From Chitinophagales bacterium (GTDB taxonomy: Bacteria; Bacteroidota; Bacteroidia; Chitinophagales; CAIOSU01): a DNA stretch of 64,000 bases. The notes under the pieces were generated by a model, which worked only from the letters and a program-made list of their open reading frames with translations, was not told where the DNA came from and searched no databases. The stretch lies in contig BPHB01000002.1 of assembly GCA_026003335.1 (NCBI GenBank), positions 983,363-1,047,362 on the forward strand, given 5' to 3'. Positions within the stretch are counted from its first letter, which is position 1, and every line of letters begins with the position of its first letter. Shown piece after piece: positions 1,919 through 40,974 of the stretch. Position numbers and translations under genes: made by a program.

Positions 1919-4900
1919 TTACAATCTTCCGGCCACTACACAGGTTTTTTTATACAGCCGTTTCTCTCCTTTCAGATTAAACAATTCTGCTACCACAACA
2001 TGATAGCCCAACCGTGCTTTGCGCCCATCATCGGTAATACCGTCCCAAACTATCACATCCTCTTTGCCTAAAAGCCAGTTTTTAACCAGCTGTCTGGTAA
2101 CTCGGCCGGCATCATCAAAAATGGTCACATTCACCACATAGCCGGGTTCGTCAAGCATAAAATAAATCTGAAGAAAATCTTCAAACCCGTCATTATCGGG
2201 AGAAAAAATTTCCGGTTTCAGAACAACTGTAGCCATTGTTGAGCCGGCCTCGCTCCACTGGGAATTCTGGTAGGCTGGGGTAGCGTATCCAACGGCTGAA
2301 GCCGCTGAATGCCAGTTATACTCATCCTGGGTTGGCCTATCAAAGCTTATGCGTTCAAGAGAAACTCCTTCTTCATCATCCAGCAAGTCTAAGTGCCAGT
2401 CTTCATGATAATGCAGTTTATCAAAAACCCTTCCCTGGGGGTACAACCCGGAAGTATCCAGCAGCAAGACCACCCCCTCTTTATCAGGATAGTTGGGCAT
2501 TCCATTTACTTTTAGTAGTCCTTTGTAGTGAGGAGTATAGTACTGTGACAGTAGGACATCCGGATTGCTGGTTAAAGCCACATATGCTTTAGGCAGCAGC
2601 TGAAAACCGGTAGTAGTAATACGGGCATATTCCAGCAGGGAATCCTGAAATAAGACATCGCCCTCGGCAATGATGCATTCTTTTAAGTCAATCACCTTGG
2701 AAGACCGGTTATATAATTCCACGAAATCCACGCCTCCGGAATAGGGATTAAAGAGCACTTCATTGATGATGACATCTCCGCTATCGGCAGGCTGGGGCAG
2801 GCCAAAGCGCACAGCGTTTTCAACTCCGATAGGGTTGCCGGAACAATCGGTAAGATGCTCTGCAGTAAGGGTGTAAACAGTTCCCTCCATCAGCGGGGCG
2901 TGTAGAGTAAGATGTATCTGATTATAGGCCGGTTGCTGACCCGTGATGAAGGCAATGCCGGGGTTGTCCGGCTCTATAACCCAATGCGCATCATTGAAGG
3001 AAGACGGGTCAAGTGATTCATCAAAATAAAGTATCACGGTAAAAGGATCGGTCACAACAGCCCTAACCAGAGTAGGTGCCGTCTCATCGGGATTAATACC
3101 AGCAACAGAGTTCATGGCACCGGGAGTGCCTCCGATAGGAGCTATTGATTCCCGCCAGTTGTTGCGTCCCGTGCAAGGGTTATTATAGTCTACCATCTCC
3201 AGACTAAAGCCTCCGTTCATTTTAATCGCTGAGGTGTACCACGTATCGGAGTACTCTACATGATGGATAACGATTCCCTGACTGTTCCGTAGTGTCAGGG
3301 GTTCTCCTGCATTAGTCAATGCGGGCAAGTTAGTTCCTTGCACCCGCCCATAAGTGCCCAACGCCTCTACAGCCTGCAGACCACACAGGATGACATATTC
3401 ATCGGGCAGCAACAGCTGATAGCTCAGATTGACACTTTGTGATGCATCTGAAAAAATCAAATCACTCAATGTGATGATTTTGTCACTTCTATTATATAGC
3501 TCCACATATTCGTAAGGGGGCAGGCCATAGGTTGGTTCGGGATCAGCCATGATTTCCGTTATCAGCACATCATAGGCTGCGGGCATCCGGGGCACTCCAA
3601 ACCGTATCATTGCCGATTGTACAGGGTTACCCGGGCAATCGGTCACCGTTCCTATCTGCAGTTGATAGAGTTGCAACGTATCAAAGGGGACAGCAAATAC
3701 CAGCCACACTTCAGAGCTACCGGATTTCAGAACTTCCATCGGGTTACCAATGCCGTTGTCCACCGAATAATTGGAAGGCATTAAGGCTGTCAGGCTGTCT
3801 ATTTCTTCGCTGAAAACTATTTTCAAAGTATCCGGTGGGGCTATTCTCACGGAGACCAGTTGCGGGGCAATGGTGTCTTTGTATACTCCGTGTATACTGT
3901 TGCGCCTGCCGGGCGTACCCCCTGAAACATCCACCGAGGCGGCCCAGTTACCGGCAGCCGGACACAGAAAATCAGGATCTATACGCTCCAGCGTCCAGCC
4001 TCCATCGCTTTTGGTGTCGTCCCGATACCAGCTATCAGAATAATTTACCTGATCAATCATGACTCCCCGGTCATTGTAAAGTGAGAAAACATCACCACTG
4101 TTATTTAAGGAAGGCAAACTCAGACCCATTACTTTTCCATAATATTGAAAGGAACTTTTATCAGCTGTAGGGCAAAGAATAACATAATCTCCGGGGAACA
4201 TGGTCATGTTGGTGAGTACTGCTGAGGAAGTGGCATCCCGGATCATCCACCCTCCCAGATTGATCACCTTTGCGCTGCGGTTGTATAACTCCACAAATTC
4301 AGAGGAAGGTAAGCCTACCGAAGGGTCGGGGTCAGGAATGAGTTCATTGAATATGATGTCAAACGGTTCAGCAAGTTCGGGGAGGGCAAAAATTACTTGT
4401 GTTGTACTGTTGTTACCAGAGCAGTCGGCTATGCCGGTCAACGTAAGCGTGTAAATAGTGCCAGAGTCAAACGGCTGTGGAAAGTAGAGTGTTGCCTCCC
4501 TGAAAGGGAATAAGGCAACCACACTATCGGGATTACCAATGCCATTATCTACTGCATAAACAGAGGGATTGCGCAGCAAGGAGCTGTCGGCCTGTTCGTT
4601 TAAAACAATTTTTAATGTAAGGGGGGAGAGTACCACTACCTCTGTTACTGATGGGGCAATGGTGTCTGTGATTACTCCTGATACACTGTTGATTTTTCCG
4701 GGTGTTCCTCCGGAGGTATCGGCAGATGCCTTCCAGTTTATGCTGTCTTCGCAGGGATAATTTGGATCAATGCGCTCCAGTGTCCAGCCCCCGTTTTCTT
4801 TTGCCGCATCGCGATACCAACTATCGGTATAGCTTACGCGGTCAATCAGCAGACCTTGATTAGTTTTCAGTGTAATGTTATCTCCGGTATTATTCAGCGA

Positions 4901-18057: not shown

Positions 18058-21000
18058 CTATCGTATGAGCGTCAGGCTGCCTTTTCGATGCTGCAGGTAG
18101 GATGGTGGAATGTTTACCCGCTCTATAAATTTGATGTCAAGATAATAGACGTATACTCCAGGCATCATGAGCTCTCCGTGGTATGTACCGTCCCATCCTA
18201 CTGAGGGATCACGGGATTCAAAAAGCTTTTCTCCCCAGCGGTCAAATATCAGCAATCTGAAGGAAGCGTAGTCGGTCAATTCTACACGGAACACATCATT
18301 ATGGTTATCACCGTTGGGGGAAAATGCATTCGGCACATAAAATATCGGATCAATATCACCCGAAGGATTTACAGGATTCAGTACATCCAGGAAGACGCTG
18401 ATTGTATCGCTGCAGCCATATGCATCCGTAGCAATAACCATATAAAAAGTGTCCCTAAGTGGGGTGATATATGGGGTAGGACAATCCGAGCAGCTCAATC
18501 CCACAGCCGGTATCCATTGGTAGGAAAGCTGTACCCCCGAATCGCTCAGCACCTGCACCTGCACACTTTCTCCGCGCTGCAGCGTAGAGTCATACGGCAA
18601 TACATACAAGTTGATAGAAGGATAGCTATATACTGCATACCACACCGAGGCGGTGCATCCTGCATCATCTGTAACAGAAAGCTCATAAAGCCCCACGCCC
18701 GCGGTTATGGCAGAAGCGGTCTCCCCTCCGGGCATCCACAAATAGGTTTCATAACCACCGCCTCCATGCAGAATCGTTTCTTCGCCATCGCAGATAAAAG
18801 TGGTATCTCCCACCAGTTCAGATAGCCTGACAGACAAATGTAAAATCACGGTGCTGTCGCAGCCAGCTGAAGAGGTTAGCACTTCTGTATAAGTACCCGA
18901 AGTAGTTTGATATGCTCCTGCAACAAAAAGGCTATCGCCAAGGCAGAGAAATGTATCCACAACAGTAGTAACTGCAGGCATCACCGAGAGTTCTGTTACC
19001 ACTATACTGTCGCACCCACTGGCTGTCGTAAGGGTATCGTAATAATTACCAGGGGTTGTCTGCAACGCCCCTCCGGCATAATAACTTTCTCCTTCACAAA
19101 TGGTAGCAGAAATGTTAGCATAGTAAGCAGTCACAAAACTGAGGGTAGTTTCAATGATGCTGTCACAGCCCCCTGATGCCACGAGTGAATCTATATAGAT
19201 CCCATCAGTATGCTGATACGCTCCTCCGGCATAAAAACTATCGGAATGACACAAGGTGAAGTCTTGCTGCACAAAATAGAAATTCACCACATCCAGATCG
19301 GTTTGAATGACGCTGTCACAACCAGCTGCAGTAACCAAAGAATCATAATATATCCCTGAAACTGTCTGATAAACACCTCCCGCTAAAAGGCTATCCCCAG
19401 CACAAATGGTTGCCTGGCGATGTATATGATAAGCCGGATGCACAATAAGGATTGTTTCAAGCAGGCTATCGCAGCCATTGAGTGCTGACAGGGTATCGTA
19501 ATAAGTGCCCGAAATATTTTGGTAGCTCCCTCCGGCATATACAGAGTCGTTTCCGCAAATAGTTATTGTTCTGGAGGAAACTGTCACCGGCAACACAGTT
19601 AAATGGGTTTGTACAATACTGTCGCACCCTCCTGAAGTAACCAATGAATCGGTATATACTCCTGAAGTATTTTGAAAACCTCCACCGGCATAGTAGGTTT
19701 CATTGCTGCATATAGTTACATCATTTACCACATGATATGCTGTAACCACACTCAGCTGGGTTTCTATAATACTGTCACAATTCTGGGATGAAATCAGGGT
19801 ATCATAATATATCCCCGGCACGTTCTGATAGGCTCCACCCACCCAAAGGCTATCTCCCGCGCAAATCGTGGCTGTTCTTGTTTCCAGTACATAGGAGACA
19901 AAAGTCAAATCGGTGATAACTACACTATCGCAACCGTTATTGGCAACAAGGGTATCGTAATATGTCCCTGAAATAGTTTGGTTAGCCCCTCCTACGTAGT
20001 AGCTCTGCTCACAGGTGGATACATTTACCTGATGGGATATTAACGGGGGCTCATTGATTGAAATACTGAGTGTGGCTACACATCCGCTATCATCGCTCAC
20101 CGTCAATGTATAGCTGCCTGCCACCAATCCGTTCTGGTCTTCACTCACCGCTCCATCGCTCCAATTGTAACTGTAAGGGGGCGTGCCCCCGCTGACCGTC
20201 ACATCTATGCTCCCGCTGTTGCCCCCGTGACACCCTACATCTACCTGCGTGCTGCTGACCTGCAAGGGCGCTGGCTCGCTGATGGTCACATTTAGCGTGG
20301 CTACACATCCGCTGTCATCGCTCACCGTCAATGTATAGCTGCCTGCCACCAATCCGCTCTGGTCTTCACTCACCGCTCCATCGCTCCAATTGTAACTGTA
20401 TGGGGGCGTGCCCCCGCTGACCGTCACATCTATGCTCCCGCTGTTGCCCCCGTGACACCCTACATCTACCTGCGTGCTGCTGACCTGCAAGGGCGCTGGC
20501 TCGCTGATGGTCACATTTAGCGTGGCTACACATCCGCTGTCATCGCTCACCGTCAATGTATAGCTGCCTGCCACCAATCCGCTCTGGTCTTCACTCACCG
20601 CTCCATCGCTCCAATTGTAACTGTATGGGGGCGTGCCCCCGCTGACCGTCACATCTATGCTCCCACTGTTGCCCCCGTGACATCCTACATCTACCTGCGT
20701 GCTGCTGACCTGCAAGGGCGCTGGCTCGCTGATGGTCCACATGAGGGAGCCGGTGCATGCATAAGCATCAGATACAGTAAGACTGTATGTTCCTGCAGGG
20801 AGATTACTTAAATCTTCGCTTAACGATCCGGTATTCCATAAGTATTGATAAGGTGGCACACCTCCCCCTACGGTTATATTAATGAATCCGGAAGAATCAC
20901 TGTAGCACCTGACATCCTGGTGTATACTGTTTATCGTCAGACCCGGAAGCAGCGTTAGCGTTACAGATAGTGTATCCATACACCCTTGAGCATCCACAAT

Positions 21001-24000
21001 GGTAAGTCCGTAGGTGCCTACAGACAAAGAGCTAATATCTTCAGTAGTATCCCCATTGCTCCATATAAAAGAATAAGGAGGCGTCCCCCCGGTTGTGGTA
21101 ACGTCAATAGAACCAGAAGGAGCATTCAGACATGCCACATCATTATGTATTTCACTCACTTGTAAAGGCGTTGGCTCGCTGATGGTCACATTCAGCGTGG
21201 CTACACATCCGCTGTCATCGCTCACCGTCAATGTATAGCTGCCTGCCACCAATCCGTTCTGGTCTTCACTCACCGCTCCATTGCTCCAATTGTAACTGTA
21301 TGGGGGCGTGCCCCCGCTGACCGTCACATCTATGCTCCCGCTGTTGCCCCCGTGACATCCTACATCTACCTGCGTGCTGCTGACCTGCAAGGGCGTTGGC
21401 TCGCTGATGGTCACATTTAGCGTGGCTACACATCCGCTGTCATCGCTCACCGTCAATGTATAATTGCCTGCCACCAATCCGCTCTGGTCTTCACTCACCG
21501 CTCCATCGCTCCAATTGTAACTGTAAGGGGGCGTGCCCCCGCTGACCGTCACATCTATGCTCCCGCTGTTGCCCCCGTGACACCCTACATCTACCTGCGT
21601 GCTGCTGACCTGCAAGGGCGCTGGCTCGCTGATGGTCACATTTAGCGTGGCTACACATCCGCTGTCATCGCTCACCGTCAATGTATAGCTGCCTGCCACC
21701 AATCCGCTCTGGTCTTCACTCACCGCTCCATCGCTCCAATTGTAACTGTAAGGGGGCGTGCCCCCGCTGACCGTCACATCTATGCTCCCGCTGTTGCCCC
21801 CGTGACATCCTACATCTGCCTGCGTGCTGCTGACCTGCAAGGGCGTTGGCTCGCTGATGGTCACATTCAGCGTGGCTACACATCCGCTGTCATCGCTCAC
21901 CGTCAATGTATAGCTGCCTGCCACCAATCCGCTCTGGTCTTCACTCACCGCTCCATCGCTCCAATTGTAACTGTAAGGGGGCGTGCCCCCGCTGACCGTC
22001 ACATCTATGCTCCCACTGTTGCCCCCGTGACATCCTACATCTACCTGCGTGCTGCTGACCTGCAAGGGCGCTGGCTCGCTGATTGTCACATTCAGCGTGG
22101 CTACACATCCGCTGTCATCGCTCACCGTCAATGTATAACTGCCTGCCACCAATCCGTTCTGGTCTTCACTCACCGCTCCATTGCTCCAATTGTAACTGTA
22201 AGGGGGCGTGCCCCCGCTGACCGTCACATCTATGCTCCCACTGTTGCCCCCGTGACATCCTACATCTACCTGCGTGCTGCTGACCTGCAAGGGCGCTGGC
22301 TCGCTGATGGTCACATTCAGCGTGGCTACACATCCGCTGTCATCGCTCACCGTCAATGTATAGCTGCCTGCCACCAATCCGCTCTGGTCTTCACTCACCG
22401 CTCCATCGCTCCAATTGTAACTGTAAGGGGGCGTGCCCCCGCTGACCGTCACATCTATGCTCCCACTGTTGCCCCCGTGACACCCTACATCTACCTGCGT
22501 GCTGCTGACCTGCAAGGGCGTTGGCTCGCTGATGGTCACATTCAGCGTGGCTACACATCCGCTGTCATCGCTCACCGTCAATGTATAGCTGCCTGCCACC
22601 AATCCGCTCTGGTCTTCACTCACCGCTCCATCGCTCCAATTGTAACTGTAAGGGGGCGTGCCCCCGCTGACCGTCACATCTATGCTCCCACTGTTGCCCC
22701 CGTGACACCCTACATCTACCTGCGTGCTGCTGACCTGCAAGGGCGCTGGCTCGCTGATGGTCACATTCAGCGTGGCTACACATCCGCTGTCATCGCTCAC
22801 CGTCAATGTATAGCTGCCTGCCACCAATCCGCTCTGGTCTTCACTCACCGCTCCATTGCTCCAATTGTAACTGTAAGGGGGCGTGCCCCCGCTGACCGTC
22901 ACATCTATGCTCCCGCTGTTGCCCCCGTGACACCCTACATCTACCTGCGTGCTGCTGACCTGCAGGGGCGCTGGCTCGCTCAGGACAATGGCTGCAGAAG
23001 CCTGGCATCCGTTCGTATCCGTAACGGTAACAGTATAACTACCAGGCGCCAGATTCTGCTGATGCCCGAAAGGAGGCAGTCCTCCACTCCATAGGAAGCC
23101 ATACGCTGGCGTGCCCCCGGCTATGGACAGGTTTATACTTCCATCGTTTGCTCCGAAGCAGGAAATGCCCGTGCTTTCAGCAAGGAGAATAAGAGAGTCG
23201 GGCTGTGTCAGAATGATACTATCTCTGACCGAACAACCACTCACGGTGTCCGTGACGAAAACATAGTATGTATCGGCCGGAATATTGAACAGATCTTCCA
23301 CGAAAACAATGTTACCCGGCAACCACTCATAGACAAAAGGCGGAGTGCCGTTGGTAACGGTTAAATCAACAGAGCCATCGCTGGCGCCAAAGCAGCTTAC
23401 GTTCCAACCTCCCGGATACACGGATGGAGTAAGAGAAGTCAGCAGTGGAGGCGGATTTAAATTCAGAGTAACAACGGATGATGCAGTACAGCCGTTTTGG
23501 TCGCTTACAGTTACCGAGTAAGTACCTAGTGGCAAACCAATTGCTGTGGATGATATTTGCCCGTTACTCCAGCTGTAGGCAAACGGAGCTCTTCCTCCGG
23601 ATACAGAAGTAAATATCTGCCCATTGGTATAATTATGGCAGGATACATGATATCCGTTGGCATAGACATAAGGTGTGAGCGAAACACTGAGGGGTCCGGG
23701 CTCGGTGATATTCACAGAAGTAGAGGCTGTACACCCATTGGCATCCGTTACGGTAACCGTATATGTGCCGGCAGACAGGTTGCTAAGATTTTGGGTGGTG
23801 TAGGCTCCGTTATTCCATGAAAAATTCAGCGGAGGAGTCCCTCCGCTTACGGAGAGGTTAATATGGCCGTCCTGGGCTCCGAAACAGCTAATATCCTGAT
23901 ATGTTCGGGATATGGTTATAGAGGTAAGGGAGGAGACGGTGACCTGTCTCGGTCCGGAGGAACAGCCGTTAGCGTCTCTCACTTCCACAGAATAGGTGCC

Positions 24001-26646
24001 CGGGCAAAGATTATTCAACGTTGCACTGGTTGCTCCGGCAATAGCCACGTTACCTGCATTATACCATTGATAGGAATAGCCCCCCGCTCCACCGCTAACT
24101 GTGGCTGAGGCTGTACCTGTGCATTGCCCTGCACATTGCACATCGGTGGAAGATACAGAAACATTCAAAGCGGTAGGCTGCGTAATGTTCACCGCAGGAG
24201 ATGTAACCACACATCCTGTGGACGATGTAACCCTCGCGAAATAGGTTCCCGCACAAAGGTTAAAGATAGATTGTCCGGTTTGTCCGGGTATGGCATTTCC
24301 GGCAGCATTAAGCCATTCATATGTGAAGGGACCGCTACCTCCATTGATATCCACCGTGATGGAACCATTGCACGCTGCATTGCAGGTTACATTACTTTTT
24401 ATTGTGGAGATAGAAAAATTGTAAGGAAGTACAGTAAGATTTTGCGTCACATTGCAGCCGGCAAAGTCTGTAACCCTCACACGATAATTTCCCGGACAGA
24501 GGTTGCTGATGGTGGGATTTGTTTGAAAAGCCAGAGGATTGCCATTGCCATCCTGCCACTGATAGGTATAGGGAGGAGAGCCTCCTGAAGGAGTAACCGC
24601 AGCGCCTCCGTCACAGATGTTGCCGCACGATTGATGGGTTACACTCACTACCGCAGAAATGTTTGTCGGGGCCGAGATGGTGAAGCTACGGGTAGATATA
24701 CAGTTCTGTCCATTTCTTACTTCCACAGCGTAATTGCCGGTACAGAGGCTACCAATTGTGGCAGACCCCGACCCGATCACTCCTCCATTACTGTTTCGCC
24801 AGGTAATAGTACAGGGTGGATTAGCACACCCGCCCACAAGGGTCACTGTGGCTGAGCCATTACAGGCTACAGGGCATGATGCATTCGTGGTGGAAACGGT
24901 GATGTTCTGGCCATTCACATTACTGATAGATACGGGGAAGGTTTTTGAGCATCCGGGAGTAGCAACGTCTGACACCGTCAGGGTAACGATGCCGGCACAA
25001 AGGTTATTAGCCGCGGCCCCTGTTTGAGGGGGGGGCGACCAACTATAGGAAAAGGACCCGCTGCCGCCTGAGACAGAAGCTGTAGCACTACCAGTACATA
25101 CTCCACAGGCGGTTGTTGTGGTAGTAAAATTGGCCGTTATGGGAGGGGGCTGCGTGATGGTGGCGGAAGCTGCGATCGTGCAGCCATTGGCATCGGTTGC
25201 GGTTACCGAATAGGTGCCGGGGAAAAGGTTGGAGATAGATTGTGTTGTACCCCCATTGGACCAGGCATAGGAATAAGGCTGAGTGCCCCCAAAAGTAGCT
25301 AACACAGCTGTTCCCGTATTCCATCCATTGCAGCCAATATTTGTTACGGATATCGTTCCGGTGAATTGTGTGGGTTCTGTTATAGTAACATTATGCGTGC
25401 GGGTACAGCCATTCTGGTCGGTGACCGTCACGGCATAATTGCCCGGAGGCAGGTTGCTGCGATCCTGGGTGCTGGCAGGGGGATTCCAGGTGTAAGTATA
25501 TTGAGGTGTTCCCCCCGAAACGGTCAGGTCAATGGATCCATTATTAAATCCGTAACAGGAGATATTCACAGGAGTAACCGATGACACCAGAGGCGGAGGT
25601 TGCGTTATAGTAAAGCTAACTGCAGCAGAACATCCATACGTGTCGGAGACAGTAAGGGAATAACTTCCCGGGCCCAAACCTGTAGTTGTGTTACCTGTTG
25701 TTTGTCCATTGCTCCACGTATAGGTATAAGGAGCAATACCTCCGTTTACTGTGATGTTAACGGAACCGTTGGATGCTCCGTTGCAGGTCACGTTACTGAC
25801 TGAAGCCACACTGGCGCTCATAGTGTAGCTGGTGGACGAATAGACTACCCATATTATCGCATTCTGTACGTTGCAACAGGTCCACGGATGACAGGAGCAC
25901 TGATTATACTCTGTGCATACATGCACACAGCAGGGATCAGAGGCCAACGGAGAACAATCCCGCGGGCAGCACCAGGCCTGTATCCCGTTACATGCTTCGG
26001 TTACATTTTGCGCCATGTATTCCCTTTCCACCCAATAGCAGCAATCGCCTGAAAATGTTCTGGTATTGCCGGTAAATACATAGCCGCTTGCAGGAGGTGA
26101 TTGCACATTGGGGCATCCTCCCGGTAACCGGTATCCCACCATACCTGATTCTGCTCCCCCCGCACCCTGCTGCTCATCGCCACCAGGATTAAAGGGATAG
26201 CTTTTCACTGTGGAGGACGAATAAAAAAAGGTGTTGTCAGACCGTATATTTTTTATCCGGAACCAGAAATTCCTTTCATTAAACTCGTAGCCTTCAATGA
26301 TATCGTTGTAAATAAACCTTTCAGAACCGCTTTCCGTGCTGAACAGCACTTTCTCATAATAGTTGATGCTGTCTGGATAGTTGTGTAGGTGAATATCAAA
26401 AAGGTGGTCTCCGGGTTCCACGCTGTCTACCGGAAAGAAGTCATTGCCATTGTAGCTTTTTTCCACCACATATTTTATGACCTTCTCTGACCGATGCGCC
26501 TCCCATACCAAATGTAAAGAAGATTCATCACCCCCCAGGTAGATAAACTGCTTTTCATCCACTTGCCCATGAGGCAGAATCTGGGCTTTAAGTCCAATTA
26601 GGCCAATCCAATAATACACCAATATGATACCTGCTATTCTGATCAT
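18058..26646 (-). CDS. Giant SprB-repeat cell-surface adhesin with gliding-motility C-terminal domain
   Basis: A 2862-residue surface protein. Signal peptide MIRIAGIILVYYWIGLIGLKAQ. Residues about 25-165 are fibronectin/Ig-like. Residues about 177-260 are cysteine-rich (14 Cys). From about 279 to 2198 there are some 25 SprB repeats, each with a pattern C-x-G-x-x-x-G-S-I-x-V-x-V-S-G-G-T-P-P-Y-x-Y-x-W and then G-S-Y-T-L-T-V-x-D-x-x-G-C; eleven are almost identical. Residues about 2199-2605 are eight repeats of 51 residues with G-D-S, G-x-Y-x-D and G-C-D-S-I. The end (about 2767-2862: N-A-F-S-P-N-G-D-N-H-N-D-V-F, I-F-D-R-W-G-E, G-W-D-G-T, G-V-Y-V-Y) is the gliding-motility/T9SS type B domain. 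SprB of Flavobacterium is the mobile adhesin of gliding. Here an adhesive role is inferred; gliding itself cannot be shown. Confidence 0.9.
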   Translation of the reverse strand: MIRIAGIILVYYWIGLIGLKAQILPHGQVDEKQFIYLGGDESSLHLVWEAHRSEKVIKYVVEKSYNGNDFFPVDSVEPGDHLFDIHLHNYPDSINYYEKVLFSTESGSERFIYNDIIEGYEFNERNFWFRIKNIRSDNTFFYSSSTVKSYPFNPGGDEQQGAGGAESGMVGYRLPGGCPNVQSPPASGYVFTGNTRTFSGDCCYWVEREYMAQNVTEACNGIQAWCCPRDCSPLASDPCCVHVCTEYNQCSCHPWTCCNVQNAIIWVVYSSTSYTMSASVASVSNVTCNGASNGSVNITVNGGIAPYTYTWSNGQTTGNTTTGLGPGSYSLTVSDTYGCSAAVSFTITQPPPLVSSVTPVNISCYGFNNGSIDLTVSGGTPQYTYTWNPPASTQDRSNLPPGNYAVTVTDQNGCTRTHNVTITEPTQFTGTISVTNIGCNGWNTGTAVLATFGGTQPYSYAWSNGGTTQSISNLFPGTYSVTATDANGCTIAASATITQPPPITANFTTTTTACGVCTGSATASVSGGSGSFSYSWSPPPQTGAAANNLCAGIVTLTVSDVATPGCSKTFPVSISNVNGQNITVSTTNASCPVACNGSATVTLVGGCANPPCTITWRNSNGGVIGSGSATIGSLCTGNYAVEVRNGQNCISTRSFTISAPTNISAVVSVTHQSCGNICDGGAAVTPSGGSPPYTYQWQDGNGNPLAFQTNPTISNLCPGNYRVRVTDFAGCNVTQNLTVLPYNFSISTIKSNVTCNAACNGSITVDINGGSGPFTYEWLNAAGNAIPGQTGQSIFNLCAGTYFARVTSSTGCVVTSPAVNITQPTALNVSVSSTDVQCAGQCTGTASATVSGGAGGYSYQWYNAGNVAIAGATSATLNNLCPGTYSVEVRDANGCSSGPRQVTVSSLTSITISRTYQDISCFGAQDGHINLSVSGGTPPLNFSWNNGAYTTQNLSNLSAGTYTVTVTDANGCTASTSVNITEPGPLSVSLTPYVYANGYHVSCHNYTNGQIFTSVSGGRAPFAYSWSNGQISSTAIGLPLGTYSVTVSDQNGCTASSVVTLNLNPPPLLTSLTPSVYPGGWNVSCFGASDGSVDLTVTNGTPPFVYEWLPGNIVFVEDLFNIPADTYYVFVTDTVSGCSVRDSIILTQPDSLILLAESTGISCFGANDGSINLSIAGGTPAYGFLWSGGLPPFGHQQNLAPGSYTVTVTDTNGCQASAAIVLSEPAPLQVSSTQVDVGCHGGNSGSIDVTVSGGTPPYSYNWSNGAVSEDQSGLVAGSYTLTVSDDSGCVATLNVTISEPAPLQVSSTQVDVGCHGGNSGSIDVTVSGGTPPYSYNWSDGAVSEDQSGLVAGSYTLTVSDDSGCVATLNVTISEPTPLQVSSTQVDVGCHGGNSGSIDVTVSGGTPPYSYNWSDGAVSEDQSGLVAGSYTLTVSDDSGCVATLNVTISEPAPLQVSSTQVDVGCHGGNSGSIDVTVSGGTPPYSYNWSNGAVSEDQNGLVAGSYTLTVSDDSGCVATLNVTISEPAPLQVSSTQVDVGCHGGNSGSIDVTVSGGTPPYSYNWSDGAVSEDQSGLVAGSYTLTVSDDSGCVATLNVTISEPTPLQVSSTQADVGCHGGNSGSIDVTVSGGTPPYSYNWSDGAVSEDQSGLVAGSYTLTVSDDSGCVATLNVTISEPAPLQVSSTQVDVGCHGGNSGSIDVTVSGGTPPYSYNWSDGAVSEDQSGLVAGNYTLTVSDDSGCVATLNVTISEPTPLQVSSTQVDVGCHGGNSGSIDVTVSGGTPPYSYNWSNGAVSEDQNGLVAGSYTLTVSDDSGCVATLNVTISEPTPLQVSEIHNDVACLNAPSGSIDVTTTGGTPPYSFIWSNGDTTEDISSLSVGTYGLTIVDAQGCMDTLSVTLTLLPGLTINSIHQDVRCYSDSSGFINITVGGGVPPYQYLWNTGSLSEDLSNLPAGTYSLTVSDAYACTGSLMWTISEPAPLQVSSTQVDVGCHGGNSGSIDVTVSGGTPPYSYNWSDGAVSEDQSGLVAGSYTLTVSDDSGCVATLNVTISEPAPLQVSSTQVDVGCHGGNSGSIDVTVSGGTPPYSYNWSDGAVSEDQSGLVAGSYTLTVSDDSGCVATLNVTISEPAPLQVSSTQVDVGCHGGNSGSIDVTVSGGTPPYSYNWSDGAVSEDQNGLVAGSYTLTVSDDSGCVATLSISINEPPLISHQVNVSTCEQSYYVGGANQTISGTYYDTLVANNGCDSVVITDLTFVSYVLETRTATICAGDSLWVGGAYQNVPGIYYDTLISSQNCDSIIETQLSVVTAYHVVNDVTICSNETYYAGGGFQNTSGVYTDSLVTSGGCDSIVQTHLTVLPVTVSSRTITICGNDSVYAGGSYQNISGTYYDTLSALNGCDSLLETILIVHPAYHIHRQATICAGDSLLAGGVYQTVSGIYYDSLVTAAGCDSVIQTDLDVVNFYFVQQDFTLCHSDSFYAGGAYQHTDGIYIDSLVASGGCDSIIETTLSFVTAYYANISATICEGESYYAGGALQTTPGNYYDTLTTASGCDSIVVTELSVMPAVTTVVDTFLCLGDSLFVAGAYQTTSGTYTEVLTSSAGCDSTVILHLSVRLSELVGDTTFICDGEETILHGGGGYETYLWMPGGETASAITAGVGLYELSVTDDAGCTASVWYAVYSYPSINLYVLPYDSTLQRGESVQVQVLSDSGVQLSYQWIPAVGLSCSDCPTPYITPLRDTFYMVIATDAYGCSDTISVFLDVLNPVNPSGDIDPIFYVPNAFSPNGDNHNDVFRVELTDYASFRLLIFDRWGEKLFESRDPSVGWDGTYHGELMMPGVYVYYLDIKFIERVNIPPSYLQHRKGSLTLIR
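18830..20040 (-). repeat. Eight 51-residue Cys-pair repeats inside the giant adhesin
   Basis: In the C-terminal third of the adhesin, eight diverged units of about 153 bases each encode the pattern T-I-C-x-G-D-S-x-x-x-G-G-x-Y-Q-x-x-S-G-x-Y-Y-D-S-L-x-x-x-x-G-C-D-S-I-x-x-T-x-L. Each unit holds two cysteines that could pair. Unlike the neighbouring SprB block they are clearly diverged at DNA level, so the expansion is old. Confidence 0.75.
20041..20715 (-). repeat. Block B: three near-identical 225-bp SprB units
   Basis: The landmark GGGCGCTGGCTCGCT recurs at 20266, 20491 and 20716, exactly 225 bases apart, and the units between differ by only a few bases. Each unit encodes one 75-residue SprB repeat. 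The lowest unit is diverged at its edge, where it joins the next repeat family. Confidence 0.9.
20716..21165 (-). repeat. Two diverged SprB units separating the homogeneous blocks
   Basis: Exactly 450 bases (2 x 225) lie between block B and block A. They encode two SprB repeats that keep the 75-residue length but have clearly different sequences (E-I-H-N-D-V-A-C-L-N-A-P-S-G and S-I-H-Q-D-V-R-C-Y-S-D-S-S-G). Confidence 0.85.
21166..22970 (-). repeat. Block A: eight near-identical 225-bp SprB units
   Basis: The same landmark recurs at 21166, 21391, 21616, 21841, 22066, 22291, 22516, 22741 and 22966, a perfect 225-base period. Copies differ by scattered single bases, for example Pro-Ala/Pro-Thr at the E-P-A/T-P joint, Asp/Asn in W-S-D/N-G and Ser/Asn in D-Q-S/N-G. 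The combinations are shuffled among copies, as expected from recent duplication with recombination or conversion. Confidence 0.92.
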
Positions 26647-26851
26647 GTAACCCCGTTGTTTTCTGTGTTTTTATTTTGTTCAGGTGCCTTAAGGGCCCAT
26701 AAAAACAAGCTAACTTCCTTTTTCCGGTTAAAATAGCAATTTTATCTGCTTGCTTCAATCCATTTTTCGCAATAAGCAGACAACCTTTAAAGAGCTTTTG
26801 CGTAAAAAGTACACAGGTTGTATTTGGTGAGGAAAATGAGGGGATGTAACT
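26647..26851. other. Divergent intergenic region between adhesin and Hpt genes
   Basis: A 205-base AT-rich gap. No exact TAnnTTTG element was found on either strand close to the two start codons; TAAAATTG on the minus strand near 26738 is a one-mismatch candidate for the adhesin gene. No hairpin terminator is expected in a divergent gap, and none is seen. Confidence 0.35.
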
Positions 26852-27238
26852 ATGCGTACGAAAAATTGCCATACGGGTGCTGATTTTGTTTGCACCATCG
26901 CACCACCCAAACTGGATTATCTGCGTGAGTTGTCAGGCGGAGATGCGGGTTTCATGAAAGAAATCATAGAAATGTTTATCCTAGAAGCTCCCCGGGCCCT
27001 GGAGCAGGCTCAGGCCTGTCTTCTGGAAAAGAATCTGGAACAACTCCGGATGATTGTACACAAGCTGAAATCTTCCGTACAGGTAGTAGGCGGGCAGCAC
27101 CTTACTGACCTGATTGTACGTATTGAATCCTGGTCGGGCGAGACTAATGAAGAACTGTGCCGGATGGTGCAGATGCTGGAAGAAGGCATACAGGATATGA
27201 TCGGCCATCTCCAGCAGGAGCTGATAGCTCTGACCTGA
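26852..27238 (+). CDS. Stand-alone histidine phosphotransfer (Hpt) domain protein
   Basis: A 128-residue helical protein fitting a single Hpt domain: an N-terminal L-x-x-L-S-G-G-D-x-x-F-M-K-E-I-I-E-M-F and the phosphorylation site H-K-L-K-S-S (His70) followed by V-Q-V-V-G, then L-x-x-L-I-V-R-I-E. Hpt proteins relay phosphoryl groups between hybrid sensor kinases and response regulators. No kinase or receiver gene lies nearby, so its partners are elsewhere in the genome. Start ATG 26852 gives 20 residues before the domain. Confidence 0.85.
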   Translation: MRTKNCHTGADFVCTIAPPKLDYLRELSGGDAGFMKEIIEMFILEAPRALEQAQACLLEKNLEQLRMIVHKLKSSVQVVGGQHLTDLIVRIESWSGETNEELCRMVQMLEEGIQDMIGHLQQELIALT

Positions 27239-27318
27239 ACAAAGTCCTTTTCTGATTTGCGTTTATCCTGCTCCTGTGCAGGTGGGATAAGTATCCTCAT
27301 TATACCCGTTAAAATCCA

Positions 27319-35677: not shown

Positions 35678-37807
35678 CTACGGACCCAGACGAACAGCCT
35701 TAATCACGGCCGATCCGGTTTCGGTTGTGAGCCGGATGAAGTATATCCCCGCTGACTGCTGCCCATCCCATGTGACAACATGGGGCCCTGCCGGCAAAAA
35801 GCCATCTTTTATGGTATGCATTACTTTGCCTTCGATGTTCAGCACCTGTAGTTTTATAGGCCCTGCATCCGTGAGATTGAACCGGATTTTACCCTCATTT
35901 CTGAATGGGTTGGGAATGATTTCAAGCTGATAAGCCGCCTGTACCCTTGCCACATACGGACAGATGTCCACCTTGACAAAACTCAAAGACGAATCTGCAT
36001 CTCCATAATAATCCCATACTACTATTGCTAACCTGTAACTACCGGTATCTGCTATTGTAGGCTTCCAGAAAAACGTTGCATCTCCAACGCCATGGTATAA
36101 AAGCCCTGCAGAAGAGGAAGGCATATAGAGCGAATCTCCTGTTTCATCATACAGATAGGCGTGCATGACTAAAGTGTCTTTCTTGCCGGAAACGAGGTCA
36201 GCATCGGTTGCTGCGAAGTGCAAAGAAAAGGAGTCCCCAATACAAATTACCAGGGAATCCGGCAACGATGTGCTTAATACCGGAAGCGCATTCTGGTTTT
36301 CAATAAAAATATCTACCTCATAAAGCCAGGGAGTCATAAAATCATTCGGGTTGTTGCTGATTACCTGAAAAATAGCCTTGTGCCATCCGTTTTGAGTCAT
36401 GCCGGGAGTCCAGGAAAAGGTATAAAAAGTGGTATCGGGCGTGGGCATGGAATTAAAAGTCGCTCCCAGGGGCATTTGCACAGGAACGAGCTGAGGCTCC
36501 CCTGTTATCCATCTGCTTGCAGGAGGATAAGGCGGGACAGGAGCAGGATAGTAACCGGTCCATGCAATGAGATGCTTCACCATGGGCTGGCCTATCACTC
36601 CCTCCCAAGGTCCGCTGTCCAGTGTATCATTAACCGGCTCGGCGGCAATCATAGTGCCCAGTGTATCCACAATGGGGTCATCATAGGAACGTAGGTCAAG
36701 AACGAATTCTTCATGGTTGTATAGTCCTGCTGGGTCGTAGGTTAGATTGATTTTATATCGGGCCCACCTGCGTCCTTCTTGTGAAGGGTCACAGGGCCAG
36801 CCCTGTGCACATACTCTAAGCCATACCCAATCGCCCCGTTCTTCAAGGTCATTGGGGGTACCATCGTTAGGTTTGCCTACAGCTGCGGTTACTGTTGGGC
36901 CGGCAGCCAGAGGAATGCCTGCATCCAGTTGAAAGGTTACATTGATGTTGGTGACAGGAACATTAGAGCAGTTTTTAATACAAAGCCAAAAACACCTGAC
37001 CTGTTGACAACGGATATACACTACCTTGGGATAGTACATCTTAATACACTTTTCAGGTGGCGGAGGTCCTCCCGGTCCTCCCGGTCCCCCGGCCCCCGGC
37101 CAACCCGGCCAGCCCGGTCCTCCCGGCCAGCCCGGCCCACCCGGGCCTCCGGCACCCCCTGGCCCCCCAGGTCCTCCCGGACTTCCTCCGCCAAAAGTAT
37201 AATACCAGTCTTCCGTCTCTCCGGTAGTAAACTGATTGCTCCCCGAGCCAATATTATAGCCCGGTCCTACCGGAGTATTGGTAAGGGTAACTCTTAACCA
37301 CACCGGAAAAAGACGCAGATTGCTGCCAAAGCCAAACCAGTCAGTTACATAGCCTATAGTAGTATCTGCCGGCACCTTCACGCTCATATTTTTTACAACC
37401 CAGTTCGGATCATTCGCATCATCAAAATCAAAATCGTCATCCACATCAATGGCTACATTGATATATATGTTTTGATTGGGGTTATGCAGCGGATTGGTGG
37501 TAATAGGTATTGTCGCCTTGCAGGCGGCAGGTATGCCAAGTAACATCACAAAAAGAAAAGGCTGCCCGTCATCCATATCTGCATTAGGAATCAGTGCATC
37601 GGCTTCGGTAGTGGGCACGGTGGATCCCGGCAGTCCAAGCCAGTATGTAGTGTTTGCAGCATCCGTGTGGCGCGGACCGTTGCTGGTGTTGAGAGATGGG
37701 AAATGGTAATTTACTCCGTCTGGAGCGTCACCGTAATCCGCCATCTGGGCAGTTGCAGTGAAAAAGATAGCAAAGGGAAGCAGGATGGTTAGGAGAAAGG
37801 CTTTCAT
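35678..37807 (-). CDS. T9SS cargo with GEVED domain and collagen-like Gly/Pro segment
   Basis: A 709-residue secreted protein. Signal peptide [21 protein letters not shown]. Residues about 22-205 form a GEVED-like domain (D-Y-G-D-A-P-D near the start, G-E-T-E-D-W-Y near the end). Residues about 207-253 are a collagen-like stretch of G-G-P and G-W-P triplets. Beta-sandwich regions follow, with a cadherin/Ig-like part ([12 protein letters not shown]). The last 85 residues are a T9SS type A sorting domain (I-I-P-N-P-F, G-x-V-x-x-W-D-G, S-A-G-I-Y-F-I-R-L). The function is unknown; a structural or adhesive role is inferred. The gene stands alone. Confidence 0.85.
37045..37190 (-). repeat. GC-rich Gly/Pro triplet repeat region
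   Basis: About 145 bases of short GGN-CCN triplet repeats encode the collagen-like segment of the T9SS cargo. The coding strand is strongly G-rich with many GG/GGG runs, the other strand C-rich. Such tracts are prone to length change by slippage. Confidence 0.7.
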
Positions 37808-38369: not shown

Positions 38370-38460
38370 GCCTGTACGGAAGGGGGAGATCGCTTGCGAC
38401 ATGATACAGGAACATATTCCCGCACACCACAGATTTGTTATGAACGCTTTAACGATAAAA

Positions 38461-38500
38461 ACTCTATATTTTAAATGGTCCGAAACCGGGGAAGCTGACA
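38461..38500. repeat. Right terminal repeat of the IS3-like relic
   Basis: The end ACTCTA...AAATGGTCCGAAACCGGGGAAGCTGACA recurs, in the same orientation and almost unchanged, at 41172-41210. The two copies therefore form a direct repeat about 2.7 kb apart, on either side of the SBBP gene. Confidence 0.75.
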
Positions 38501-38556
38501 CTATATCAATCAACACAAAATTTTTTTACTATTGCAGAAACTCAAAAAACACCAAA

Positions 38557-40974
38557 ATGAAGAAGGTAATTTTTATCACTTTTTTATTTGGGGTTTTTGC
38601 AGGGGTGCAAGCCCACAGCCAGCATGCCAACAAGGCCTTAGAAAAAGCAGATAGACGCTTTTTCATTGAAAACAAAGGACAATGGCACCCGGATGTGCTC
38701 TACCTCTGCCGCATGGGCGGATTGGATGCCTGGATTACCAGGTACGGGGTCAACTATACACTTTCTACAAGTTTGAAAAAGACCCCAACGCCACCGCCAA
38801 AGACAGAAAACAAACCCATGCCCCGCGGCAAGTTTGACCGTGAAGAACAAGAAAACACCATTTTGCTCGGACACCGCGTGCTGATGAAATTACAAAACGC
38901 CAATGCTAACCCAAGCCGTGAAGGCAAGCAAAAACAGCAAGGGTATTACAATTATTTTATTGGCAACGACCCCGACAAACATGCTACCTATGTAGGTCTT
39001 TACAAAGAAGCCGTAGTGAAGGACGTGTATAACGGCATAGACCTGCGGTATTACTTTGATAAAGGAAATTTGCGGTATGATTTTGTGGTGCACCCGGGGG
39101 CAGACCCTTCGCAAATTGTTTTTAAGTTAGAAGGACAATATGAAACAAACGTAAAAGGCAACCAACTGCTGTTTACTACCCGATTTGGCGAAGTAGCCAT
39201 GGCCGATTTAAAGACCTACCAGGCAGGGGATAAAAAGCAAGTAGCCAGCCAATTTAGGCAGATAGGGCAAGGCGAATACAGCATTAGCGTAGCACATTAC
39301 GACCCCACCCAAACCCTGATCATAGACCCGCTCATTTATTCTACCTATATCGGGGGAAGTAATAATGATTATGTCAGAAGCATAGCTGTGGATGGCAGTG
39401 GCAATGCCTATGTGACAGGAAGTACACAGTCAACCGATTACGACATCACGGCTGGGGCGTTTCAAACAACGAATGTAGGAGGATTTTATGATGTTTTTGT
39501 AACGAAATTGAATGCCACAGGCACGGGCTTGGTCTATTCTACCTATATCGGGGGAAGTAGTGATGATTATGGCTATGCCATAGCCATAGATGGCAGTGGC
39601 AATGCCTATGTGACGGGGTATACAAGGTCCCTCAATTACGACATCACCCCGGGCGCGTTTCAAACGACCTATAGTGGTGGTGCTAGTTATGATGTTTTTG
39701 TTACGAAATTGAATGCCACGGGTACGGGCCTGGTGTATTCTACCTATATTGGAGGAACTAATACAGATTATGGCTTTGCCATAGCCGTAGATGACAGCGG
39801 CAATGCGTATGTGACGGGGCAGACGGTGTCAACCGATTACGACATCACCCCGGGGGCGTTTCAAACGACCTATAATAGTGGTGGAAATCCAATTGCTGAT
39901 GATGTCTTTGTTACAAAATTGAATCCCACAGGCACGGGCTTGGTATATTCTACCTATCTTGGGGGAAGTGATGAGGAATTTGGCTCTGGCATAGCCATAG
40001 ATGGCAGTGGCAATGCCTATGTGACGGGGGGTACATATTCAACCGATTACCCCACCACGCCAGGGGCGTTTCAAACGACCTTGGGAGGAGAAGTTGATGT
40101 GTTTATTACGAAATTGAATCCCACGGGCACGGGCTTGGTCTATTCTACCTATATCGGGGGAAGTAATAGTGATCAGTGCTCTGGTATAGCAATAGATGGC
40201 AGCGGGAATGCGTATGTGACCGGAAGGATAGACTCGACCGATTACGACATCACGCCGGGCGCGTTTCAAACGACACATGGAGGAGGAGCTTATGATGCTT
40301 TTGTAACGAAATTGAATGCCACGGGTACGGCTCTGGTCTATTCTACCTACATTGGGGGAAGTGATATTGATCAGGGCAATGGCATAGCCATAGACGGCAG
40401 CGGGAATGCGTATGTGACGGGGTATACAAGGTCCCTCAATTACGCCATCACCCCGGGGGCGTTTCAAACGACCTTGGCCTTTTTAGAATATACCGATGTT
40501 TTTGTTACAAAATTGAATGCCACGGGCACGGGCTTAATCTATTCTACCTATCTTGGGGGAAGTTATGATGAGAGGGGCAGTGGTATAGACGTAGACGGCA
40601 GCGGGAATGCGTATGTGACGGGGTATACATTGTCACCCGATTACGACATCACACCGAGAGCGTTTCGAACGAATTATTATGGAGGATTGTATGATGTCTT
40701 TGTTACGAAGTTGGATATGTCGGGGACTACAGGCTTATCGCAAAATGCAAGTACACAAAGTGCTTTCCACATCTATCCCAACCCCAACAACGGTCAGTTT
40801 GTAATACGAACCAAACAAGGTGGAGTATTTGACTTGGTGGATATAACAGGAAAAGTAATGGATACCTATACCTTGCAAAATACCTCTTTGCAAATCCATG
40901 AACACTTGCCCGCAGGCATGTATTTTATAATAGAGAAAACTGGAGGTTCTGTCCAAAAATTAATCATACAATAG
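38557..40974 (+). CDS. SBBP-repeat T9SS cargo protein
   Basis: An 805-residue secreted protein from ATG 38557, which gives the signal peptide MKKVIFITFLFGVFAGVQA; the frame is open upstream into the IS relic, but that part is not a plausible leader. Residues about 30-255 resemble the domain that precedes SBBP repeats (E-N-K-G-Q-W-H-P-D-V, then G-I-D-L-R-Y-Y). Seven repeats of 66-69 residues follow: S-T-Y-I-G-G-S, A-I-A-x-D-G-S-G-N-A-Y-V-T-G, T-P-G-A-F-Q-T-T and D-V-F-V-T-K-L-N, a beta-propeller type. The last 75 residues are a T9SS type A domain (H-I-Y-P-N-P-N-N-G-Q-F, L-P-A-G-M-Y-F-I). It lies between two IS3-like ends, so it may have been mobilised. Confidence 0.9.
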   Translation: MKKVIFITFLFGVFAGVQAHSQHANKALEKADRRFFIENKGQWHPDVLYLCRMGGLDAWITRYGVNYTLSTSLKKTPTPPPKTENKPMPRGKFDREEQENTILLGHRVLMKLQNANANPSREGKQKQQGYYNYFIGNDPDKHATYVGLYKEAVVKDVYNGIDLRYYFDKGNLRYDFVVHPGADPSQIVFKLEGQYETNVKGNQLLFTTRFGEVAMADLKTYQAGDKKQVASQFRQIGQGEYSISVAHYDPTQTLIIDPLIYSTYIGGSNNDYVRSIAVDGSGNAYVTGSTQSTDYDITAGAFQTTNVGGFYDVFVTKLNATGTGLVYSTYIGGSSDDYGYAIAIDGSGNAYVTGYTRSLNYDITPGAFQTTYSGGASYDVFVTKLNATGTGLVYSTYIGGTNTDYGFAIAVDDSGNAYVTGQTVSTDYDITPGAFQTTYNSGGNPIADDVFVTKLNPTGTGLVYSTYLGGSDEEFGSGIAIDGSGNAYVTGGTYSTDYPTTPGAFQTTLGGEVDVFITKLNPTGTGLVYSTYIGGSNSDQCSGIAIDGSGNAYVTGRIDSTDYDITPGAFQTTHGGGAYDAFVTKLNATGTALVYSTYIGGSDIDQGNGIAIDGSGNAYVTGYTRSLNYAITPGAFQTTLAFLEYTDVFVTKLNATGTGLIYSTYLGGSYDERGSGIDVDGSGNAYVTGYTLSPDYDITPRAFRTNYYGGLYDVFVTKLDMSGTTGLSQNASTQSAFHIYPNPNNGQFVIRTKQGGVFDLVDITGKVMDTYTLQNTSLQIHEHLPAGMYFIIEKTGGSVQKLIIQ
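39340..40725 (+). repeat. Seven tandem SBBP-encoding repeats of about 200 bases
   Basis: Each unit begins near TATTCTACCTATAT and contains GGCAGTGGCAATGCCTATGT, then GTTTCAAACGACC. Copies are similar but not identical, with small length differences (66-69 codons). Confidence 0.85.

Follow-up and report, generated by a model that had tools for sequence, protein, structure and literature searches.

An open reading frame (ORF) of 2862 aa, lying within the 64-kb stretch of DNA analysed here (C2:983363-1047362; hereafter the window), contains thirteen tandem 225-bp SprB units, eleven of which are nearly identical in DNA, share variants in mosaic combinations and stand upstream of matches to T9SS export signals. 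Very likely, these units constitute the tandem stalk array of a predicted T9SS-exported surface protein, an array that was recently amplified and whose units exchange sequence by homologous recombination. In the proposed course of events, a single SprB-type Ig-like domain would have been amplified in tandem recently, after which the copies would have swapped sequence by unequal crossing-over and gene conversion and so evolved jointly, while two older diverged units remained inside the array and a hybrid unit arose at its 3' edge. The array would form the stalk part of the surface protein and be resized by recombination in a periscope-like manner. The ORF and its parts are arranged as follows:

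18058-26646 (-): SprB-repeat protein ORF, 2862 aa (ORF listing, PF13573, TIGR04131)
25807-26646 (-): N-terminal region, aa 1-280, with a signal-peptide-like start and a Cys-rich part, without a known domain
22972-25806 (-): diverged SprB-like units upstream of the 225-bp array
21172-22971 (-): homogeneous block 1, units 0-7, 225 bp each
20722-21171 (-): diverged SprB units 8 and 9, which share 40/75 and 38/75 aa with the consensus
20047-20721 (-): homogeneous block 2, units 10-12, unit 12 being a hybrid
18787-20046 (-): seven diverged GCDS-motif repeats, mostly at 51-aa spacing
18133-18336 (-): C-terminal T9SS type B sorting domain (PF13585 CHU_C / TIGR04131)

In a Pfam search, PF13573 (SprB repeat) matches the ORF with 855 bits over 24 stretches (cut-off, 28), and the label 'SprB units' given in the earlier note is correct as a Pfam assignment. 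The C-terminal domain scores 62.1 for PF13585 (cut-off, 27) and 54 bits for TIGR04131 (cut-off, 35). No Pfam family matched the GCDS-motif repeats at 18787-20046, and single-sequence folding of aa 1-280 was uninformative (pLDDT 31). Opposite the array, at 21802-23094 (+), runs an antisense open frame of 430 aa that starts with GTG; rather than being a gene, it most likely results from the in-frame 225-bp repetition. A short unlisted frame at about 26850-27290 (+), between the array gene and an OMP-barrel gene, looks HPt phosphotransfer-like by eye.

The array runs from 22971 down to 20047 on the minus strand in thirteen in-frame units of 75 codons each, and Tandem Repeats Finder (TRF) calls it with a period of 225 and 12.9 copies at 20072-22980. 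The count of thirteen and the layout of eight near-identical, two diverged and three near-identical units, both proposed earlier from inspection, are borne out by the unit alignment. The strict 225-bp register is likewise exact but less remarkable than it might seem, as many other SprB arrays in the same genome share this spacing, which is widespread because 75 aa correspond to the domain plus its linker. What distinguishes the present array is the DNA identity of its units rather than their register. Any two of the ten units 0-7 and 10-11 are 1-8 of 225 nt apart. Unit 12 is 13-15 nt away from the other near-identical units, with nearly all of these differences falling within its last 43 nt (20047-20089): up to position 182 it is consensus-like bar one shared variant, and beyond that it is diverged. 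Units 8 and 9 are separated from the remaining units by 104-111 of 225 nt, and the final 16 nt of unit 9 equal the consensus. No two of the eleven near-identical units have the same sequence, each carrying its own combination of variants. Among the variable sites named in the earlier note, Asp/Asn (codon 39) and Ser/Asn (codons 47 and 53) are confirmed, whereas the supposed Pro/Thr site is in fact Ala/Thr (GCG/ACG) at codon 1; Val/Ala at codon 10 is a further one. The pN/pS ratio among the ten near-identical units is about 0.17; therefore, the repeat domain is under constraint. Given that each unit is exactly 75 codons long, gain or loss of whole units preserves the reading frame, and thus recombination can resize the stalk without destroying the protein.

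Evidence that the units have exchanged sequence comes mainly from the combinations in which their variants occur. In the four-gamete test, 19 of 21 informative site pairs are incompatible when the first 182 nt of all eleven units are compared, as are 22 of 28 pairs in the ten full units. Random genealogies without recombination served as the null model, and in 5000 simulations they yielded means of only 0.07-0.09 incompatible pairs, with the observed values reached in none; simulations of the eleven-unit set averaged 0.07 and never exceeded 8. Nor are the two homogeneous blocks differentiated from each other, the between-block distance being no larger than the within-block distance (equal or larger in 152 of 165 relabellings). 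Such a mosaic of variants in undifferentiated blocks implies that the units have swapped sequence, beyond mere duplication. It follows that a one-off recent duplication, with point mutation alone and no exchange between units thereafter, is strongly disfavoured, and we consider it very unlikely. Although the differences among the ten full units are as few as expected of a young array, the 19 incompatible pairs far exceed anything simulated without recombination, and confining mutation to 20-40 hot sites in the ten full units likewise leaves the simulations below the observed value. Neighbouring units show no significant excess of similarity (P = 0.24), which pure serial duplication would have produced. 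Serial duplication with breakpoints inside units may partly mimic the mosaic, yet this would itself be recombination between units.

The exchange appears to be confined to the array. DNA of the array units finds only short, weak matches elsewhere in its own genome (at most 79% identity and at most 62 bp) and only weak partial matches in 59 relatives (at best 71% over 129 bp); thus, exchange is local to the array. Together with the four-gamete test, the undifferentiated blocks and the hybrid end unit, this single-locus character supports the earlier suggestion of recent expansion with continuing recombination, and the eleven copies are almost identical presumably because they keep recombining with each other. 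Had the blocks recombined by crossover, units 8 and 9, which are single copy, would have been lost or doubled, so at least part of the inter-block exchange was probably conversion without crossover. In mechanism this is concerted evolution of an ordinary sort, here in a class of proteins that has received little study.

Two other explanations concern the origin of the units and the reliability of their order. A GC-richer relative may have been the source of the near-identical unit, acquired through horizontal transfer or domain shuffling and amplified afterwards, which would agree with the third-position GC content (GC3) of the near-identical units: it is 0.69, whereas units 8 and 9 and the flanking parts of the ORF have 0.33-0.48. 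However, a match to donor DNA was found neither in the genome nor in the 59 relatives, the closest protein relatives that genome_contigs offers for the unit reach only about 58% identity, and the unit keeps the Cys/Gly/Trp pattern and the 75-aa phase of its neighbours, all of which makes such an import rather improbable. The least probable of the alternatives is that the number or order of units is wrong because near-identical repeats were collapsed or falsely expanded during assembly. In favour of this, exact repeats within the array reach 268 bp, the assembly yielded no 16S rRNA gene, and in other genomes several related arrays break off where the contig ends. Against this, the near-identical units are all distinct by their variants, which makes false duplication of one unit unlikely; an exact repeat as long as 668 bp is resolved at another place in the same assembly; and a comparable array (8 units, 98% match; L218/G249) is present in a genome assembled as a single contig. 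Given the 268-bp exact repeat and the missing 16S rRNA gene, unit order is open to assembly error, and the exact order of units in the array is moderately uncertain. Recombination between units of a recently amplified stalk array is thus retained as the preferred reading.

Several SprB-repeat matches lie at or near contig ends (L163, L164, L166, L198, L199, L259 and L261), which is consistent with such arrays breaking assemblies; short-read assemblies may accordingly misreport SprB arrays. The 668-bp exact repeat occurs at positions 3558 and 8263 of L043, about 4.7 kb apart and near two SprB-repeat ORFs, and suggests a recent duplication.

The preferred reading alone leaves the high GC3 of the units unexplained. 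In a first set of 14 arrays, which included that of the window and was the source of the GC idea, the rise in GC3 of homogenised repeats gave P = 0.0026; a second, separately fetched set of 11 arrays gave P = 0.14, with three of six positive when only SprB units were counted. Across 24 arrays, the window left out, GC3 rises in 18, by a mean of +0.043 (P = 0.0033). With SprB-unit codons grouped by repeat identity, the shift relative to non-homogenised SprB units of the same gene is -0.004 at 75-88% (n = 78), +0.043 at 88-95% (n = 16, one-sided P = 0.017) and +0.103 at 95% or more (n = 4, the window among them), although the choice of these identity classes followed earlier results and the test was run in several variants. 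A rise confined to the recently homogenised class is therefore suggestive only. GC-biased gene conversion, easier expansion of GC-rich founders and codon selection are all possible causes of the rise, and that homogenisation of SprB arrays is GC-biased seems to us doubtful. If it is true, SprB arrays would be a natural setting for testing whether gene conversion in bacteria is GC-biased.

Arrays of this kind are a recurrent minority. Class-wide, 275 of 395 Bacteroidia genomes match the array at E <= 1e-60, and SprB-repeat proteins are common in Bacteroidia yet seldom mentioned in the literature searched. In a survey of 209 SprB-like ORFs, repeats of at least 88% identity spanned 60 codons or more in 25, and repeats of 95% identity or more did so in 9; by the latter measure the array of the window ranks second, which makes it a strong instance of this recurrent minority. 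Its own genome has further repeat arrays (L032, L033 and L041), including a 237-bp array in L033 (6492-9362 of that locus, on C1) with 12.1 copies at 83% match and a higher-order period of 954 bp at 90%.

Whether the locus itself has gained or lost units was approached through homologues. The N-terminal region (aa 1-285) has no homologue in six family members, genome_contigs or viral_contigs, and the downstream neighbour protein, searched in the family, matches only itself, leaving no syntenic locus for comparison. In another genus, SprB-repeat proteins with a common N-terminal region have 13 units (G249, the single-contig genome), 12 units (G631) and 8 units (G543). The first two share 70% identity in the N-terminal region; core units taken from the same one of these genomes agree at about 98-100%, whereas a comparison across the two yields 83% at most. 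The third has a different unit type throughout. These unit counts and the homogeneity within genomes amount to concerted evolution with unit turnover between species. By this sequence comparison, made in another genus rather than at the array locus, the SprB-repeat class does undergo unit turnover with homogenisation. A pair of SprB-repeat genes in Saprospira grandis, collinear, equal in unit number and about 92.6% identical in DNA, speaks against turnover, although their repeats, only 87-91% alike, are too diverged to make the pair an informative test.

The units are predicted with high confidence to adopt an Ig-like fold. A two-unit model (AlphaFold2, alignment of 33 sequences) reached pLDDT 96.8 and pTM 0.77 with the same strand order in each unit, and the alignment reveals two conserved cysteines per unit, which possibly form a disulfide. 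Searched by sequence against the PDB, the array returned phage decoration proteins at E of about 0.001, a weak CalG1 match and nothing else.

As for export, the genome encodes SprA (TIGR04189, 2116.5 bits; cut-off, 200), has 19 PorP/SprF matches and, when taken with its neighbours in frame, a GldJ match that is barely over the cut-off (TIGR03524, 458.7 versus 458.2 bits). There are many other SprB-repeat ORFs in the genome, several of which adjoin a PorP/SprF match; of the 19 PorP/SprF matches, none lies beside the array gene or anywhere else in the 64-kb window. Elsewhere in the window, a T9SS-tailed beta-propeller protein (SBBP, DUF7948) at 38401-40974 (+) has a tandem repeat of its own of about 200 bp (6.7 copies, 77% match), and a 9-bp repeat (CCTCCCGGC) of 12.9 copies occupies 37068-37180 within an ORF at 35678-37807 (-). 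We infer that the array would be displayed at the surface as a stalk, change in length in living populations and serve in adhesion.

Among known systems, the namesake is SprB of Flavobacterium johnsoniae, a gliding adhesin of 6497 aa that is likewise large, built of PF13573 repeats and furnished with a type B T9SS signal (PMC9870892, PMC12635249). The genome shares with it SprA, a GldJ match and PorP/SprF matches, whereas the array gene is without a PorP/SprF match in its 64-kb window. Because the GldJ match is barely over the cut-off and PorP/SprF lies outside the window, the protein is named here a predicted surface stalk, not SprB. In fold, the nearest solved structures to the two-unit model are those of grappling hook protein A (GhpA) from Aureispira sp. 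CCB-QB1 (PDB 9flw and others), fragments of which occupy the five top places in the structural search (Z 9.7 to 8.9; for 9flw, rmsd 4.1 over 144 residues at 21% identity). General Ig-domain proteins follow close behind (Z about 8.4), so the similarity indicates a shared fold and is no proof of kinship. GhpA is the hook protein of Aureispira, and PMC11205867 describes the hooks of ixotrophic predation as heptamers formed by a T9SS-secreted protein.

Near-identical tandem repeats are carried by CwpV of Clostridium difficile, which belongs to a different phylum from the array protein and is anchored differently. In PMC3080850, CwpV is introduced as a cell wall protein that is antigenically variable between strains and has a conserved aggregation-promoting function. 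Another parallel is with Periscope Proteins (Sgo_0707 SHIRT, Rib and others), which are likewise single-chain surface proteins with long, near-identical tandem domains, near-identical repeat DNA and a C-terminal anchoring or export signal, and whose length is thought to be altered by intragenic recombination (PMC8201768, PMC9704523). Tandem repeats of more than 50 residues and at least 80% identity are a criterion for this group (PMC8201768), and the units of the array, 75 aa long and, for the ten full units, at most 8 of 225 nt apart, fall within those limits. The array protein differs from them in its phylum, Bacteroidota, in its use of the T9SS rather than a sortase or autotransporter and in its SprB-type Ig-like domain; neither paper has SprB or Bacteroid- in its main text. 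By analogy with Periscope Proteins, the length of the stalk probably changes over time. Variation between strains is a feature of those proteins and a prediction for the array gene, as is a difference in adhesin length between cells at this locus, which the earlier note had raised and which is plausible. Recombining SprB arrays that turn over their units would thus extend the idea of the length-variable bacterial stalk to T9SS proteins.
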